Virus record (IMG/VR): IMGVR_UViG_3300032799_000120
Coordinates: 1 to 24,084 of that record
Source of the DNA: a virus
DNA: 24,084 bases
Reading direction: 5' to 3' (one strand)
Part shown: positions 7,984 through 16,260 of the stretch, in pieces
How positions within the stretch are numbered: the stretch's first letter is position 1
Layout of the letters: each line of letters begins with the position of its first letter
Notes under the pieces: model-generated
The model's database searches: none
Told to the model about the DNA's origin: nothing
Seen by the model: only the letters and a program-made list of their open reading frames with translations
Made by a program: the position numbers and the translations under genes

Positions 7984-10077
7984 CTAACCATATCGACCGG
8001 CGCCGTTAATTAAGCCTAACGCCTCGCGTGCTCCCTGGCCGGCTGCTCTGCGGACGTCTGGCGCTGAGCCGCCATTGACGTTGACGATAATCGTATGGCC
8101 TTGTCCGCCACGCGTTTTTATGCCAAGTTTGCCATCCGAGCCTCGGGCTAATGGCATGATGGCTTCGGGGCCTGCTTCACCCATTAAGCCCGTGCGCCCG
8201 CCGGCCATCGGGAAGGTGTGCGGGCTTGTGACTACGCCACCACCGGCAAAGGCAACTATATTGCCGTGGTTGAAGGCGTGGCCCTTGGCGGCAAAGGCGC
8301 TGAACAGCGATGCGGCGCCACTGACGAGAGAATCAAGGCCACCGCCCCCGCCGGATTTTTTGGACATTAACGAATCGAATATGGCGGCGGAGGCTGCTTC
8401 TGCGGCCATTTTGCGCAAGGCGGTGGTGAAATTATCCAACAAACCGCCCATATCGGTATTAAAAGGATCAAACAGGAAATTGGCAAAACTATCCTGCATA
8501 TTGCGCGCGGCCTGAATTGAAAACTGGGTAAGCGCATCAGTACCCTCCTTAGCCGGGGTTATAAATTCATCATTCCAGGCCTTGCCCAGTTTGTCGAATT
8601 CGGCTTTTGCCTGGTCGGAGTTAATGGTGCCGAGTTTTAATTGATCCTGGGTTTTAGCCAACGCATCACCAAAGCCGCTTTGAATGTCCCCGGAGCGAAT
8701 CAGCTCATCATTGCTTTGACGCAAATCATAATAATCATTGGCGGATTCCACCAGTGCCGCCCATTGTTTTTCCTGGGTTTCCAGCGCGTCTTTTTCCTTG
8801 GCCAGTCCCAACAGGTTTTCCTGTTGCAATGGCGCCAGGCCTTTTAATGAGCCGCTGATGATCTCATATTCAACCTGGGCGACTTCGGTGTTTTTATCGC
8901 GTAAATCGATTTCTTTTTGCAAGCTGGCAAGCATCGATTCATAGGAATTTTGTAGCTTCTCTGCTGCTTTTTGTTCATCCGTTAATGCGGCTTTTCTGGC
9001 ATGGTGCCCTTTCCCTTTCCCGCTGCCACTGTTGATAAAATCTGATACGTCTTTTGTTGATGGTCCCGAGGACAATTTTATCGATGCAGTAGGATTAAGG
9101 CTATCCTTGAGTTGCCCGGCAAGTTTTTCCTGTTGTTTGTATAGACTATCAAGCCGGTTTTTTTCCAGCGTGATGTCATTGCCTGCCAGGTCATCAATCA
9201 GCCCACCGATAAGCCCGTTGTTTTTCAGGGCATTGACTTTTTTCTCGGTGACATCAATTTGCTCGTTGACATGCTGGAGCTGACCGGCAACGCCTGAGAA
9301 TGTTTGTTTGCCAACAAGCGCATTTCCAATACCTGACATCACATTATTAAAGGTAACGCCCGCCTCGGTAGCATTGCTGATTGATTCATACAGATTGTTG
9401 AATGCAGAAGCGAACGAACCACCTGCTACTACAGACACATTACTAAGTCGCACACGCATTAATTCAGACGTATCGTTAAAAATATCGGCATTCCTGGCCA
9501 TTTCAGCGGTAACACCGGACAGCTTTGCGCCTTCCGCAACTACTTTTCTTAGTTCTGCGCCCCCCTGTGATAATAGTGGCGCCAAATCCTGCCAGGATTT
9601 ACCGAGCGCTTTGTTAGCCAAAGCGGCCCGCTGTTGAGGATCTTCAATTGAAGAAAAGACATCAGCCAGTTGCAGGAAAGCATCAGCCGGGTCCTTGGCA
9701 TCGATACCCAGCTTTTTAAAGGCTTCACCGTTTTTGGCGATATTAACGCTGAGTTTATTGGCGGCCGACGTGAACGCCTCCATATCGGTGCCGCTTTGTT
9801 TGGTGGCCAGCTGGAAGCCTGCCAGCTTTTCGACCGCTATGCCGGTTTTAAGTGACATATCGTTGAGGGCATCGGCGGCGTCTATGCCGGATTTTACAAA
9901 AGCGGTGACAGCGGCAACGGACAGACCTGCGCCAAGAGCTGAAAAGGCTTTGTTGATGCGGCTGGAGGTGGTTTCAGCGCGTTGTTGAAAGCGGTTTAGA
10001 TGATCACTAATGCGATCAACCTGCCCGGCAATATTGCCCAAATGGGCATTAAAATCAACCGTGATGCCTAACGCCAT
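7984..10077 (-). CDS. Tail tape measure protein
   Basis: This 697-aa protein is long and largely helical. Residues about 1-45 form a predicted coiled region; a hydrophobic stretch (ALGAGLSVAAVTAFV) follows at about 46-62. The segment ALNDMSLKTGIAVEKLAGFQLA is typical of phage tape measures. The C-terminus has the lambda-family signature AGGGVVTSPHTFPMAGGRTGLMGEAGPEAIMPL, then a glycine-rich tail. The protein sets tail length; at about 1.5 angstrom per residue the tail would be near 100 nm (inferred). It starts 2 bp after the gp10-like gene and lies downstream of the tail chaperones, as usual. Confidence 0.95.
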   Translation of the reverse strand: MALGITVDFNAHLGNIAGQVDRISDHLNRFQQRAETTSSRINKAFSALGAGLSVAAVTAFVKSGIDAADALNDMSLKTGIAVEKLAGFQLATKQSGTDMEAFTSAANKLSVNIAKNGEAFKKLGIDAKDPADAFLQLADVFSSIEDPQQRAALANKALGKSWQDLAPLLSQGGAELRKVVAEGAKLSGVTAEMARNADIFNDTSELMRVRLSNVSVVAGGSFASAFNNLYESISNATEAGVTFNNVMSGIGNALVGKQTFSGVAGQLQHVNEQIDVTEKKVNALKNNGLIGGLIDDLAGNDITLEKNRLDSLYKQQEKLAGQLKDSLNPTASIKLSSGPSTKDVSDFINSGSGKGKGHHARKAALTDEQKAAEKLQNSYESMLASLQKEIDLRDKNTEVAQVEYEIISGSLKGLAPLQQENLLGLAKEKDALETQEKQWAALVESANDYYDLRQSNDELIRSGDIQSGFGDALAKTQDQLKLGTINSDQAKAEFDKLGKAWNDEFITPAKEGTDALTQFSIQAARNMQDSFANFLFDPFNTDMGGLLDNFTTALRKMAAEAASAAIFDSLMSKKSGGGGGLDSLVSGAASLFSAFAAKGHAFNHGNIVAFAGGGVVTSPHTFPMAGGRTGLMGEAGPEAIMPLARGSDGKLGIKTRGGQGHTIIVNVNGGSAPDVRRAAGQGAREALGLINGAGRYG

Positions 10078-10079
10078 TG

Positions 10080-10775
10080 CTATGCTCCAGTTACATTTAA
10101 ATTAAGTTGCCGTGCAAGTTGTGCAGTGGCGACTTCCGAGGCCTCTACCATAATAGCTAATGCTGTTGGCGCGGTGTTATTGAAAGTGTTTAACACGAAG
10201 TGCTTTCCTTCAACCTGTCGTCCAGCGCCTACCCGCCGATACGTTGCCGTTTTAAAGCGATAATCCCGCCTGAATAAACGTTGGCCTGCCCTGGAATTTC
10301 TTGCTGTTCTGCTGTAATTTATTGTTGTTCCCTGGCGATTAACACGTGTGAATCTGGATGTTAAAGCTTCACGGCCAGTAACATTCGCGCTGCCCGTGTT
10401 GTAGCCAACTTCGACGTATTTACCATACCAAGCGCCCTTTGGATCGTTGCGTTTTTTACCTGGCGAGACGGTAATAAAAACACCAACACTGCCATTTTTA
10501 CGAATCTGATTAATTTTTGAATTTTTAACTTTGATAGCACGTTTTAACCGGCCTGGGGGGAAATGGGTATACATTCCACGACCCGTATTATCTTTTTCTT
10601 GTGAGCCACGCGCACTAACTGGCGCAGCATTGCGGATTTCCTTAAGCATATAATTTGCACCTTTACGTATAGCAAGACGATTGATGCGCTCTCCTAAACG
10701 GGCATTGAATTGAAATAACGCGCGCTGAATTTCAGCAATACCACGGATTCTTATTTCAAAAGCATCATCACTCAT
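10080..10775 (-). CDS. HK97 gp10-like head-tail / tail completion protein
   Basis: I start this 231-aa protein at the ATG at 10775 (MSDDAFEIRI), which has AAGGA upstream and overlaps the previous stop by 8 bp. A longer frame from a TTG at 10793 is less likely. The N-terminal half (IQRALFQFNARLGERINRLAIRKGANYMLKEIRNAAPVS) followed by a basic GRLKRAIKVK stretch matches the HK97 gp10 family, which completes the head-tail joint or tail end. Its position just before the tape measure is unusual, since gp10-like genes more often precede the major tail gene. It is longer and more basic than typical family members, with a loop rich in Arg, Lys and Asn at about 110-190. Confidence 0.72.
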   Translation of the reverse strand: MSDDAFEIRIRGIAEIQRALFQFNARLGERINRLAIRKGANYMLKEIRNAAPVSARGSQEKDNTGRGMYTHFPPGRLKRAIKVKNSKINQIRKNGSVGVFITVSPGKKRNDPKGAWYGKYVEVGYNTGSANVTGREALTSRFTRVNRQGTTINYSRTARNSRAGQRLFRRDYRFKTATYRRVGAGRQVEGKHFVLNTFNNTAPTALAIMVEASEVATAQLARQLNLNVTGA

Positions 10776-10980
10776 CAGAATCCTTAATATCAATTTTGCA
10801 AACCCAACCGGCTGCGATTTGCGCGGCGCCGATCAACTGTCTGCCATGTTCTCCCATCTCGCCATGCCCGCCGAAATATTCCATTACAGTCCCCCGCTTA
10901 AACATATCATTAGCCAGCTTTTGTAATTGACCGGCTATTTCCGAAGGCTTTATGGTGAGCAAATCGACGCCATCAGCCAT
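10768..10980 (-). CDS. Small hypothetical phage protein (70 aa)
   Basis: I do not recognise this protein. It has an N-terminal amphipathic helix (IAGQLQKLANDMFKR) followed by a glycine/histidine-rich turn (YFGGHGEMGEHGRQLIGAAQIAAGW) and an acidic end. It is kept as real because it starts with ATG just after a strong terminator hairpin, overlaps the next gene by 8 bp and lies in a fully packed late operon. A role in tail assembly is possible from position only. Confidence 0.6.
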   Translation of the reverse strand: MADGVDLLTIKPSEIAGQLQKLANDMFKRGTVMEYFGGHGEMGEHGRQLIGAAQIAAGWVCKIDIKDSDE

Positions 10981-10997
10981 TATTTTTTATCCGCCTA

Positions 10998-11031
10998 TAA
11001 AAAAGCGTGCATATCAATGTAGATATGCACA
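10998..11031 (-). terminator. Intrinsic terminator, minus strand
   Basis: Read on the minus strand, a perfect 9-bp stem GTGCATATC / GATATGCAC with a 6-base loop is followed by GC and a run of six T. It lies between the stop of the 121-aa gene and the ATG of the 70-aa gene. Since the downstream tail genes must still be expressed, it is probably partial or overcome by late antitermination. Confidence 0.8.
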
Positions 11032-11038
11032 CTTGATA

Positions 11039-11404
11039 CTAACTCACAGCAATTTCGTCACTCACATCCAGCGTACCAACCGGCGGTGTTTCGAACTCGT
11101 CAACGGCCAGTTGAATTGTAATTAATTCGCTTTGCAGCTCTTCGATTACATCCAGCGGGGCGATTTGTTGGACCCTTAGCGGATAGCCATGGTCGATCAG
11201 TATTCTAATATCCGCTATGGCGTTGACAATATAAGCCAGGCGGATGATCGACCATTGCAGCGACTCATTCACTTCGGCACGGGCAGAACCGCTAAGCAGG
11301 TTTTCAGGAAATGACAATATCCGTGTGTAGCCCTCGATTCTGACCGATTCAAAAGTTTCCGCATCGATCAGCTCTTCAAGAAGTTGTTGGATGGTGGTAT
11401 CCAT
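11039..11404 (-). CDS. Hypothetical late tail-region protein (121 aa)
   Basis: This acidic, mostly helical protein has no motif I recognise. Its ATG shares one base with the stop of the upstream Ig-like gene (TAATG), so the two are probably translated together. The C-terminus GTLDVSDEIAVS resembles the upstream gene's ending, GTVTVGDEVAL, a faint hint of a shared terminal motif. It lies between the tail chaperones and the tape measure, where accessory tail proteins are common. An intrinsic terminator follows within 10 bp of its stop. Confidence 0.65.
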   Translation of the reverse strand: MDTTIQQLLEELIDAETFESVRIEGYTRILSFPENLLSGSARAEVNESLQWSIIRLAYIVNAIADIRILIDHGYPLRVQQIAPLDVIEELQSELITIQLAVDEFETPPVGTLDVSDEIAVS

Positions 11405-11724
11405 TACAAGGCGACTTCATCACCCACTGTAACTGTACCCGCTACAGCGCCCAAAGGAGCTACAAAATTGAATGTTTCGGTGATGACTACCGGAAAGATT
11501 CCAGTCCCCAAATCACCATCTGCGGTAATTGTCAGCGCCGCGCCATCACCACTTCCTGCCCAGGCCAATTCGGCTGACAGGCCGTCGGCTGCTATGGTTA
11601 GAACCGAGGTTTCGGCTGGAGTGATTGACCAGACCGGGGCGCCTTCAATTTGACCTGGCGTGCCGTCTGCTTTAGTGTATTGCGGAGTGATGGTTCTTTT
11701 AAAGCCTTGATGGATTTCAAACAT
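11404..11724 (-). CDS. Ig-like (BIG2-type) beta-sandwich tail protein
   Basis: I place the start at the ATG at 11724 (MFEIHQGFKR), with AGAGGAAA 5 to 8 bases upstream; a TTG-started longer frame is unlikely. This gives 106 aa. The sequence (GAPVWSITPAETSVLTIAADGLSAELAWAGSGDGAALTITADGD) has the pattern of a bacterial Ig-like domain: W-S-x-x-P, alternating hydrophobic strands and a final V-T-V-x-D-E. Similar small proteins decorate phage tails or bind carbohydrate weakly. It follows the tail chaperone and a palindromic element and is coupled to the next gene by TAATG. The function is inferred. Confidence 0.7.
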   Translation of the reverse strand: MFEIHQGFKRTITPQYTKADGTPGQIEGAPVWSITPAETSVLTIAADGLSAELAWAGSGDGAALTITADGDLGTGIFPVVITETFNFVAPLGAVAGTVTVGDEVAL

Positions 11725-11782
11725 TGTATTTTCCTCTTTTGTTAAAAACAGTAGCAACCGGCTACTGGCGGTTATGGTTTTT

Positions 11783-11880
11783 AGACAGGATTTACGGGAT
11801 TTACGGGTAGAGACGCGATTTATCGCGTCTAAAGAAGACGCGATAAATCGCGTCTCTACGTAAGACTGTAAATCCTGTCT
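11783..11880. repeat. 98-bp palindromic element with 13-bp terminal inverted repeats (MITE-like)
   Basis: The ends AGACAGGATTTAC (11783-11795) and GTAAATCCTGTCT (11868-11880) are perfect inverted repeats. Inside are two copies of the AGACGCGAT-type palindrome (11811-11830 and 11836-11855), here with TTTATC and ATAAATC centres, so the two copies are also inverted relative to each other. This most complete copy shows what the family at 5404 and 7923 may derive from. It sits between the chaperone extension and the Ig-like gene and codes for nothing. Its size and ends fit a small non-autonomous element, but no target duplication is obvious. Confidence 0.85.
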
Positions 11881-11895
11881 GATTTATTTTAAACG

Positions 11896-12524
11896 TTATA
11901 TTTTCTCGTTCTGAGAATCTCTGATTAGCAGCATTTGTTTGACCAACATCTCAACATCATCGATGCCCAGCATTTCAACCACTACCGGCAAACCTGCCCA
12001 GTCTATTTCACCGCCCAGCATGTTCCAGGCTTGTATCGCCAGCTGAAACAGGGCGGGTGGTTGCTCTTTATAAAACGGTAATTTGCTGGCTTCTAACCAG
12101 GCGCGTCCTTTCCCAGTTCTTGATCAACCTCGCTAATATGACCCAGCCAGGCGTTGAAGATATGAAAGCCAAGCTCGGTGATGATTTTGGGATGGTCATC
12201 CGCCCATAACAGGAACAACTCTTTATCAAATGGCAACTCAACACTGGAGCCGCCGGGTATGATGGTTATTTCCTGCATCCCCGGCCAGCCGACAACAAAG
12301 CGCTCGATGGCGGTTTGTGCCAGGCGGCGCCAAAGCAGGTTTTTCAGTGTAAACATTTCCGCGTAAAACAGTTTTACATCTTCACTGGCTAACGGATTGC
12401 CACCCATATCATTGAGCCATTCCATAGCTTGCATCGGTGTAGGACGGGTAATTGTAAATGCTTTCCCGTCTACATCGACGTTGGTTTGTCTGGATTTTTT
12501 GAGTTTTTCCAGCAATGCACTCAT
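11896..12524 (-). CDS. Tail assembly chaperone, long form made by -1 frameshift
   Basis: The short chaperone frame (12093-12524) contains GGGAAAG at 12114-12108, read as G GGA AAG, the heptamer lambda uses in its G/T genes. Slipping back one base after Lys139 gives a 70-residue extension (GRAWLEASKLPFYKEQPPALFQLAIQAWNMLGG...NEKI) ending at the TAA at 11896-11898, 209 aa in total. Seven bases after the heptamer, a stem CTGGTT / AGCCAG with a 3-base loop (12086-12100) holds the zero-frame stop; this is a normal place for a frameshift stimulator. The extension has no good start of its own. The long form would link tape measure and tail tube subunits, as in lambda gpGT. Confidence 0.85.
12093..12524 (-). 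CDS. Tail assembly chaperone, short form (gpG-like)
   Basis: This 143-aa protein ends at the TAG at 12093-12095 when ribosomes do not slip. It lies between the major tail gene and the tape measure, where the lambda G-type chaperone belongs. The sequence is acidic and helical: MSALLEKLKKSRQTNVDVDGKAFTITRPTPMQAMEWLNDMGG, then LLWRRLAQTAIERF and ELFLLWADDHPKIITELG. It is thought to coat the tape measure before tail tube polymerisation and not to enter the virion. It starts 2 bp after the major tail stop. The excess of short over long form is expected to be set by the slippery site. Confidence 0.88.
   Translation of the reverse strand: MSALLEKLKKSRQTNVDVDGKAFTITRPTPMQAMEWLNDMGGNPLASEDVKLFYAEMFTLKNLLWRRLAQTAIERFVVGWPGMQEITIIPGGSSVELPFDKELFLLWADDHPKIITELGFHIFNAWLGHISEVDQELGKDAPG
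12108..12114 (-). promoter_or_regulatory. -1 programmed frameshift slippery heptamer GGGAAAG
   Basis: The heptamer is in the correct phase (X XXY YYZ) at codons 138-139 of the chaperone gene, four codons before its stop. A 7-base spacer and a 6-bp hairpin follow. The -1 frame is open for 70 codons beyond and shut in the +1 direction after 14 codons. Confidence 0.88.
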
Positions 12525-12526
12525 GA

Positions 12527-13189
12527 TTACGCGGTGTAATATGATGGTGTGGCGGCTGCTGCGATTGATCCAGATGATTTGATGGCTTCACCAAACGCAC
12601 CGGCGGGTAATGCGGTGAAGCCAACGTAACCGCTGAACACCATAATTTTTCCGCCTGTTCCGAAGGTAAATTTAACGGCCAGAAGAGTCTGTGCATCGGA
12701 CGCGGTTTTCATCGCTGCTTGCCCGGCATCACTGATATCCCATAAGTGCCTGATATCTATCGATACCGGCGAGGCCAGGCCAGGTATTTCACGTTTGACA
12801 TTGCCATGGATCACCGAGGTGTCCACTTTATCGAAATCGCCGCCGGACATGGTTATTTCGGCAACGGTTGACAATGTTGTGCCGAACGTTATTTTTTTGG
12901 CGGTGCCACTGGAGAAAGTATCGAAGGTGGTGGTGTCGATTCCAGTAGCGCTACTGACATCTTCAAGCTGGAATGATACCGTGGTAGAGACGTTGACTAC
13001 CCGGTAAACTTTTCCATCCAGCTGCTGCATACCCTGTACGGACAATACTACAAAATCGCCATTGGCAAAATCGTGAGTACAAGTTATGACTCCTGGCGCA
13101 GCCTTGGAGATTGCGGTAATGGTTTTGACAGCGCCCAGAGCGGATTGCAGGGCAATTGCCACGTTGGTCATTTTTGTTACTGTAGACAT
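12527..13189 (-). CDS. Major tail (tube) protein
   Basis: This 220-aa protein precedes the tail chaperone and follows a terminator hairpin, as the most abundant tail protein often does. The start ATG has TGAGGA upstream. The second half (STVAEITMSGGDFDKVDTSVIHGNVKREIPGLASPVSIDI) has the strand-turn pattern of phage tail tube proteins; the ending VGFTALPAGAFGEAIKSSGSI is also typical. Residues about 22-98 (HDFANGDFVVLSVQGMQQLDGKVYRVV, FDTFSSGTAKKI) form an added beta domain like the one in the DUF2460 protein, perhaps displayed on the tail surface. Confidence 0.9.
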   Translation of the reverse strand: MSTVTKMTNVAIALQSALGAVKTITAISKAAPGVITCTHDFANGDFVVLSVQGMQQLDGKVYRVVNVSTTVSFQLEDVSSATGIDTTTFDTFSSGTAKKITFGTTLSTVAEITMSGGDFDKVDTSVIHGNVKREIPGLASPVSIDIRHLWDISDAGQAAMKTASDAQTLLAVKFTFGTGGKIMVFSGYVGFTALPAGAFGEAIKSSGSIAAAATPSYYTA

Positions 13190-14868: not shown

Positions 14869-16260
14869 TTAAAGCGATATTGAATAGTTTCTATTTTCTG
14901 GCGATACTAAATAGTTTCTGTTTTCTGGCGATACGACATAACCTCTGTCGATTGACGGTATAATAATTCCTCCAGGCGCGGCAATAGTTCTACCGGCTTG
15001 ACCAATTATTGCTGTTATAACCTGGCTTGCTATTTTCGTGCTTGCAGATTGCGCGGCTTGTCCGATTTTGCCGGTTATAGCCTGGCTTGCTATTTTCGTG
15101 CTTGCAGATTGCGCGGCTTGTCCGATTTTGCCGGTTATTGCCTGGCTTGCTATTTTCGTACTTGCGGATTGTGCAGCTTGTCCAAATCTTCCGATTACCG
15201 TAGTGGTAATTACTCCCGCACCAATTTGTTCAGCAGTAATTTGGCCGGTTTGTCCGATTATGCCGGTTATTGCCTGGCTTGCTATTTTCGTACTTGCGGC
15301 TTGTGCGGCTTGTCCGCTTATGCCGGTTATTGCCTGGCTTGCTATTTTCGTGCTTGCGGCTTGTGCGGTTTGTCCGCTTGTTCCGGTTATTGCCTGGCTT
15401 GCTATTTTCGTGCTTACGGATTGGCCTGATGATCCAGCATTTGCCAATAGCGAGATAACAGCAATTTTTTCGGTTGTGCCTTGTGCGGTTTGCCCAAGCC
15501 GACCTGTTACTGTAGATGTATGTGTCTCTGTGCCTAGTGCACTTAAGGAAAATATTTTTTTTGATGTTAAAAATAGTTGATAGGGGTTTTTACTTACCCT
15601 TAAGCATTGGTCCGTAGTAAATTCACAGGGGAATACCGCAAAAATATAATTTTCAACTAAATCGGATAATGTAGCCGAGGATGTAGCGGAGCCAAGCTTT
15701 AACGCTACACTAGACGCAGGCCTTGCACCACCCAATGCACCAGAGCCGAGTTTAATTCCATCCCTCCATACCTCTATGCCCCGGAGTCCTACACAAAAAA
15801 CCCAGCACTCTGGAACAGTTGTAAATGTGACCCCGGTTATTGTTAGCCGATTTGTAGTGGCATTTCCGAAGTCATAAAAAATACTACCATCACTGTAAGG
15901 AATACAACATATTAACCTATTCCCAGCCGCTTGATCGCCAGTAAACGCTGAAGCATTTCGATATGTCGTATCCAGTTTACGACGGTATAAAACGACTGTG
16001 CCTGCACTAAGATTCGGTAAGCACTGGTCAACCGTTTTCTTTAGATCAATATAAGAATAGCCGCCCGCTGTCTGCTTAGCGGCCCAGCCTCCTTGTCCTA
16101 TGTTGCGCGTAACATTTGACGGCGTAAATAGTGTTCCGGTAACTGCATCACGGGTGTATGAGTTACCTGTCCAAACCGTTGTCGCATTGCAAAATTCTTC
16201 GGCCATCCTGGCCAGGTTTTGAGGCTGGATAATCCCGTTCTGTCTGACAAGGATTATCAT
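14869..16260 (-). CDS. LamG-like domain protein with 20-residue tandem repeats
   Basis: This 463-aa protein has two parts. Residues about 30-245 look like a concanavalin/LamG beta-sandwich (YRNASAFTGDQAAGNRLICC, ITGVTFTTVPECWVFCVGLRGIEVWRDG, ending SKNPYQLFLTSKKIF), a fold that binds sugars in phage virion proteins. From about 250 to 430 there are roughly nine repeats of ASTKIASQAITGKIGQAAQS type; several are nearly identical, others decayed. The C-terminus repeats SPENRNY twice (27-bp unit). It lies in the accessory cluster after the capsid gene and starts 3 bp after the upstream stop. A long surface fibre or head decoration with a sugar-binding head is likely but inferred. Confidence 0.75.
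   Translation of the reverse strand: MIILVRQNGIIQPQNLARMAEEFCNATTVWTGNSYTRDAVTGTLFTPSNVTRNIGQGGWAAKQTAGGYSYIDLKKTVDQCLPNLSAGTVVLYRRKLDTTYRNASAFTGDQAAGNRLICCIPYSDGSIFYDFGNATTNRLTITGVTFTTVPECWVFCVGLRGIEVWRDGIKLGSGALGGARPASSVALKLGSATSSATLSDLVENYIFAVFPCEFTTDQCLRVSKNPYQLFLTSKKIFSLSALGTETHTSTVTGRLGQTAQGTTEKIAVISLLANAGSSGQSVSTKIASQAITGTSGQTAQAASTKIASQAITGISGQAAQAASTKIASQAITGIIGQTGQITAEQIGAGVITTTVIGRFGQAAQSASTKIASQAITGKIGQAAQSASTKIASQAITGKIGQAAQSASTKIASQVITAIIGQAGRTIAAPGGIIIPSIDRGYVVSPENRNYLVSPENRNYSISL
15001..15525. repeat. 60-bp-period tandem repeat inside the LamG gene
   Basis: Units containing CCTGGCTTGCTATTTTCGT recur at about 15021, 15081, 15141, 15272, 15332 and 15392, an exact 60-bp spacing apart from one decayed 72-bp unit (15181-15252). 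Two decayed units extend it to about 15525. The period is a multiple of three, so copy number can change without a frameshift, and it also keeps the opposite strand open. Confidence 0.93.

Follow-up and report, generated by a model that had tools for sequence, protein, structure and literature searches.

A probable lambda-type −1 frameshift in the tail assembly chaperone gene of an IMG/VR virus and the varied recoding signals of its relatives

The closest described counterpart of the locus studied here is the tail chaperone pair G/GT of phage lambda. At the lambda site (J02459), GGGAAAG stands five codons before UGA, G is the next gene after the major tail gene, the annotated T is 144 codons long, and H starts at the end of T. 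By the measure that we apply below, the RNA downstream of the lambda heptamer has no excess of structure (z +0.91). The accessible part of PMC5009743 calls G_GGA_AAG highly prone to shifting in E. coli, and A_AAA_AAC is reported to shift weakly in this species. The parts available of two phage genome papers place the −1 sites of tail chaperones at AAAAAAC or GGGAAAC in Acinetobacter phage Loki (gp12/gp13; PMC5313236) and Caulobacter phages phiCbK and Colossus (PMC3556154). Haloarchaeal tailed viruses HCTV-1, -2, and -5 also appear in the accessible text of PMC5009743; their archaeal hosts set them apart from the window.

We analyzed a stretch of 24,084 nucleotides from an IMG/VR virus record (IMGVR_UViG_3300032799_000120; hereafter the window). 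A zero-frame ORF on its minus strand (12093..12524, stop included) encodes a protein of 143 aa that, from the ORF and its IMG/VR relatives, is probably a G-like tail assembly chaperone. The last codons of G are GAA CTG GGA AAG GAC GCG CCT GGT TAG. The heptamer GGGAAAG (12108..12114, minus strand) is read ctG GGA AAG in the zero frame, that is, in the exact X XXY YYZ phase with GGA in the P site and AAG in the A site, and four codons (GAC GCG CCT GGT) separate it from the UAG stop (12093..12095, minus strand). This stop falls inside the −1-frame codons for W-L-E (TGG TTA GAA). In the −1 frame, no stop occurs from 12123 until 11898..11896, and the T-like extension on the minus strand (11896..12114, stop included) consists of the slip codons for GK and a further 70 residues, reading GRAWLEASKLPF... 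after the slip; the predicted fusion is 139 + 70 = 209 aa. If codons are numbered from the slip, the first ATG, GTG, or TTG of the T frame comes no earlier than codon 32, already inside the conserved domain. A first-pass annotation made from the sequence had claimed a phased GGGAAAG four codons ahead of the stop, a 70-residue extension with no start of its own, and a 143/209-aa pair; the minus-strand codons bear out all of these. Across the 26 genes of the window (7181 codons), 12 XXXYYYZ heptamers (Y = A or T) occur in frame, of which GGGAAAG is found once. At this density, ~0.015 heptamers would be expected in the nine-codon overlap.

The neighboring genes place G where a tail chaperone is expected, between the genes for the major tail protein and the tape measure. 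Directly upstream, two bases from the 143-aa ORF, lies the major tail tube gene (12527..13189, minus strand; phrog_584, E 3.3e-37; PF08813, E 1.2e-16). The tape measure protein (7984..10077, minus strand; 697 aa) is the presumed partner of G/GT and was recognized by phrog_8462 (E 3.7e-20) and other tape-measure families, with a further match to NF058675 below the cut-off. The window and lambda share the GGGAAAG heptamer, a stop a short way past it (four codons in the window, five in lambda), a −1 extension, the place of G next to the major tail gene, and downstream RNA that is no more structured than expected (z +0.70 in the window). They differ in the length of T and in the four genes that separate T from the tape measure in the window; moreover, no sequence family link was found for G or T. 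From the sites of Loki and phiCbK/Colossus, for which the available parts of those papers mention no stem, the window departs in its AAG and in a stop that comes four codons later.

Several features of the surrounding region were recorded along the way. The four genes between T and the tape measure (10080-11757) encode proteins of 117, 121, 70, and 237 aa, the last being HK97-gp10-like; by eye, a gp10-like ORF also lies behind T in L005, L066, L067, and L076. Four codons before its stop, the gp10-like gene of the window (10080-10793) contains an in-frame TTTAAAT, where the −1 frame is that of the tape measure; as the tape measure has its own ATG, this heptamer may be due to chance. Residues 32-86 of the tail tube protein match the E1_FCCH domain of ubiquitin-activating enzyme E1 (30.8 bits; Pfam cut-off 29.5), with a weak NCBIfam Ube1 match as well. 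Where tail tube and G adjoin, L064 has two inserted ORFs, one of them lysozyme-like, and L065 has one that resembles a GIY-YIG endonuclease (both by eye). Farther along the window, segments recur in the second half of a 463-aa ORF (14869-16260), KIASQAITG...GQAAQSAST among them. Just behind T lies an inverted repeat (11807-11859; GTAGAGACGCGATTTATCGCGTCT...) whose 24-bp arms match perfectly across a 5-nt loop. Its 23-nt core occurs in 14 IMG/VR stretches, with ten copies in L266 as an interspersed array, and hence it looks like a mobile or host repeat.

Neither G nor T of the window matched any Pfam, PHROG, or NCBIfam entry, and tblastn against isolated phages returned no match for window G, window T, or the T of L104. 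The window has no near DNA match among isolated phages, and scans of genome contigs found no relative. AlphaFold2 models of G (pLDDT 88.1) and T (four helices; mean pLDDT 90.8) gave no fold match at E ≤ 0.001. Among viral folds, the best matches to the G model include annotated tail assembly chaperones (E 0.007-0.01, TM about 0.45), and the first-ranked match to the T model is a "Tape measure chaperone" (E 1.1); both are weak. Comparison with the PDB returned nothing useful for G and, for T, homeodomain-like helical matches only (Z under 4). Residues ~45-70 of G form an insertion of roughly 26 residues, modeled partly with low confidence, that is common to the window, L002, and L076 and absent from the other ten aligned clade members.

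Because G and T were without family or isolated-phage matches, relatives were sought in IMG/VR from two anchors, first the neighboring tail tube protein and later the T domain. The tail-tube-anchored search yielded 132 matching loci, of which 84 were distinct and 82 had a complete G (L065 and L134 were dropped); these fell into 74 clusters at 90% nucleotide identity. The T-anchored search examined 250 loci, with T on the plus strand in 225, and gave 121 distinct sequences, 113 with a canonical heptamer (101 clusters) and eight without. T domains in the first five relatives are 43-53% identical to that of the window, and the closest relatives in the larger set reach 59%. Among the aligned G relatives, 5 of 64 match phrog_313, "Tail assembly chaperone" (best E 0.00067). 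Differences summed over 56 nearest-neighbour comparisons were distributed 952/625/1752 over −1-frame codon positions 1/2/3, the pattern of a translated frame. This is the codon-level conservation in relatives that the first-pass annotation had proposed as a check, and here it takes the form of an excess of third-position changes. By this pattern of substitution, the −1 frame is evidently a real, conserved protein domain.

We then located the slip site in both sets. An in-frame heptamer lies within the overlap in 73 of 74 tail-tube-anchored lineages. In the larger set, a canonical −1 heptamer is found at or within two codons of the homologous place in 101 of 105 readable lineages, and in 97 of those 101 it occupies exactly the codon expected from the T alignment. 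The letters vary: A_AAA_AAC in 63 lineages, A_AAA_AAG in 12, G_GGA_AAC in 10, A_AAA_AAA in 9, and G_GGA_AAG in 7. On these alignments, the slip site is conserved by place, not by letters, and GGGAAAG is a minority form. Loss of the heptamer in relatives that keep both frames had been named in advance as grounds for doubt; it applies to the letters (GGGAAAG kept in 7 of 101) but not to the presence of a −1 heptamer at the same place (101 of 105). Among the eight sequences without a canonical heptamer, three come from loci that end within or near the junction (L060, L200, and L219), and the other five, from four lineages, carry near-heptamers: GGGGGAG in L229 and L153, GGAAAAG in L166/L168, and GGGGAAG in L002/L221. 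L002 is the closest relative of the window (G 90% identical). Its T is cut off by the contig end after 23 codons, over which the −1 frame is kept and, by eye, 18 of 23 codons specify the same residue. L002 is nevertheless an unfavourable case, since the A-site tRNA would need to re-pair with GAA through a first-position G:U. According to the accessible part of the PRFect paper, GGGGGAA is very common among the tail chaperones used for training, and G:U re-pairing is pointed to; near-heptamers are thus not necessarily dead.

Position, heptamer, conserved −1 domain, and the lack of a separate start all fit the lambda-type assignment made on first pass, and from the sequence we consider it very probable that this tail chaperone gene undergoes programmed −1 ribosomal frameshifting of the kind known from lambda G/GT. 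In such a scheme, most ribosomes would read G through to UAG and release the 143-aa chaperone. A minority would slip back by one base, with tRNA-Gly and tRNA-Lys moving on G_GGA_AAG to GGG AAA, and would read 70 more codons to produce the 209-aa GT fusion. By analogy to lambda, G would bind the tape measure protein and the T part would recruit the tail tube protein. That ribosomes slip here, how often they do so, and which roles G and GT play are what we infer.

A version of this scheme in which a hairpin around the stop is a needed stimulator appears unlikely. The first-pass annotation had described a 6-bp stem starting 7 bases past the heptamer and containing the UAG, such that reading the stop would open the stem. 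The stem and its 7-nt spacer are there: CTGGTT (12100-12095) pairs with AGCCAG (12091-12086) around an AGA triloop (hairpin 12086..12100, minus strand). Of the UAG, however, the U alone is paired, with A and G lying in the loop. The stability of the hairpin does not stand out from that of dinucleotide shuffles (z −0.54 to −1.13) or of synonymous redraws that keep the −1 protein (z +0.8 and +0.70); coding by itself predicts as much. We surveyed 32 junctions, 28 with a heptamer ending in G or A plus 4 near-heptamers, and found an AGA-triloop stem of at least 6 bp in five: the window, L002, L142, L144, and L229, with 6-9 bp. It is absent from the other 27, including the close L147 and L174, which share the heptamer and stop spacing of the window. 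The five carriers are exactly the five junctions that encode WLEAS. As only 96 of the 1152 uniform synonymous codings of AWLEAS would give such a stem, its occurrence in 5/5 exceeds a uniform-coding prediction and the stem may have a small role, an argument that is weakened by the relatedness of the five carriers, which share this peptide. Swapping arms among the 16 window-type lineages left the native arms better in 8, with no sign of coevolution. The shuffles, redraws, and arm swaps together speak against the hairpin as a selected stimulator in the window and against its proposed place as a functional part of the signal; as far as these data go, it is probably a bystander.

Most relatives are arranged differently. 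In 71 of the 101 lineages, the stop directly follows the heptamer (UGA in 51, UAA in 13, and UAG in 7), and the next base is C in 47 of these 71; the window, with its stop four codons away, lacks this layout. The MFE fold of every one of the 71 contains a stem; in the median it begins 4 nt past the heptamer, has 16 bp, and spans 44 nt. For the 64 stop-adjacent lineages whose heptamer ends in C, the comparison with synonymous redraws gave a mean z of −2.52 (Wilcoxon p 4e-12), with 58/64 lineages below −1; at 90 nt downstream, the corresponding value was −0.12. In the first set, the stem signal was gone 12 nt past the heptamer and absent or weak upstream of it (mean z −0.41 to +0.04). When arms were exchanged between lineages, the native pairs came out better by a mean of 6.1 kcal/mol (65/71, p 9e-13), which shows that the two arms change together. 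No stem signal was seen among the 16 lineages of the window type, in which the heptamer ends in G and the stop is distant.

The first set suggested that the stem goes with a heptamer ending in C, but the larger set overturned this rule: the stem is kept where a heptamer ending in G or A abuts the stop (seven lineages, mean z −2.66), and also where one ending in C has its stop 1-7 codons away (nine lineages, mean z −2.00). Where the last base is G or A and the stop is distant, the junction is without a stem (21 lineages, mean z −0.43). The 90-nt downstream controls were −1.41, −0.61, and −0.79, respectively, and in view of its own control the last result means that the G/A junction with a distant stop does not stand out. 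GC content was also considered as the cause of the stem signal and rejected: the C lineages have a higher GC content (0.60 versus 0.50), yet the signal was stronger in the 12 with GC under 0.55 (mean z −3.2), and for the stop-adjacent C lineages the value 90 nt downstream was close to zero. Heptamers ending in G or A need three changes on the tail tube tree, and with only three independent changes a formal tree test of the last base cannot reach significance. One clade, which includes the window, holds 12 of the 14 scored G/A rows and L002. In this clade, the displaced stop is made within the conserved T motif W-L-E by a Leu codon YTA, such that TGG YTA GAR holds a zero-frame UAG; TAG stands at four codons in 11 of the 16 window-type lineages.

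To extend the comparison to isolated phages, we chose four records from 13 matched by a tail tube search. The tail tube proteins of Acidovorax phage Aval and Pseudomonas phages PS-1 and Medea1 are 24-31% identical to that of the window, and that of Escherichia phage Phagiculus 22.8%. All four have an X_XXA_AAC directly before the stop, like the common arrangement of the IMG/VR relatives, and a −1 extension of 103-109 codons, a different and longer T than that of the window. An excess stem is present in two (Aval, z −2.79; Medea1, −4.31; PS-1, +0.66; Phagiculus, −0.52). The T frame is annotated as a "FAD-dependent oxidoreductase" from an internal start in Aval (gp32; L138 4661-4972), as a separate hypothetical protein in PS-1 and Medea1, and as a second tape measure protein in Phagiculus.

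These annotations, in which the T region of all four distant relatives is a gene of its own with an internal start, speak for a T made by separate initiation or translational coupling with no slip. We regard this as very improbable for the window, whose T frame offers its first possible start only within the conserved domain. Among the first 20 T codons of the 101 lineages, ATG occurs in 9 and GTG or TTG in 23, whereas the heptamer is near universal. Less probable still is a fusion made by transcriptional slippage on a homopolymer: runs of nine A occur in some relatives (e.g., L005 and L115), but the window has just GGG and AAA, runs too short for RNA polymerase slippage, and the relatives keep the X_XXA_AAZ phase. 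Finally, a sequencing error or decayed gene is scarcely credible, for although the window itself is known from one record, 101 lineages repeat the −1 arrangement, and their −1 frame has changed in the manner of coding sequence.

The programmed frameshift is, then, the reading that we retain, and its signal in the window looks lambda-like: a strong AAG heptamer and a nearby stop, with no excess structure. It appears to consist of the heptamer alone with the stop close by, as at lambda's own site. For the family as a whole, we are evenly divided over the proposal that, within a single tail chaperone family, two recoding signals can stand in for each other at the homologous codon. The more frequent cassette would be mostly A_AAA_AAC, followed at once by the stop and, ~4 nt past the heptamer, by a stem of median 16 bp. 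In the window lineage, this cassette would have been replaced by a stand-alone, strong heptamer with lysine in the A site, the stop moved four codons away through Leu YTA, and the stem lost. The titles and abstract openings that our literature searches listed gave no instance of a stop-adjacent heptamer and stem as a unit, or of its replacement within one family; the novelty of both is unproven.

The frameshift itself is of a known kind, and the window adds one more lambda-type tail chaperone pair, from a protein family unnamed in the libraries searched and one that gene callers would cut short. The family-wide comparison, which goes beyond the first-pass annotation, is the interesting part. 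More than 100 related junctions amount to a natural experiment: heptamer, stop, and stem differ among them, yet the place of the slip and both proteins have been kept. This makes the trade-off between the three parts testable in bacteria, where A_AAA_AAC is reported as weak and is still the commonest form here. If the two-signal proposal is true, stop adjacency and stem would be a compensating package for a weak heptamer, and the speed of termination would possibly tune the G:GT ratio.
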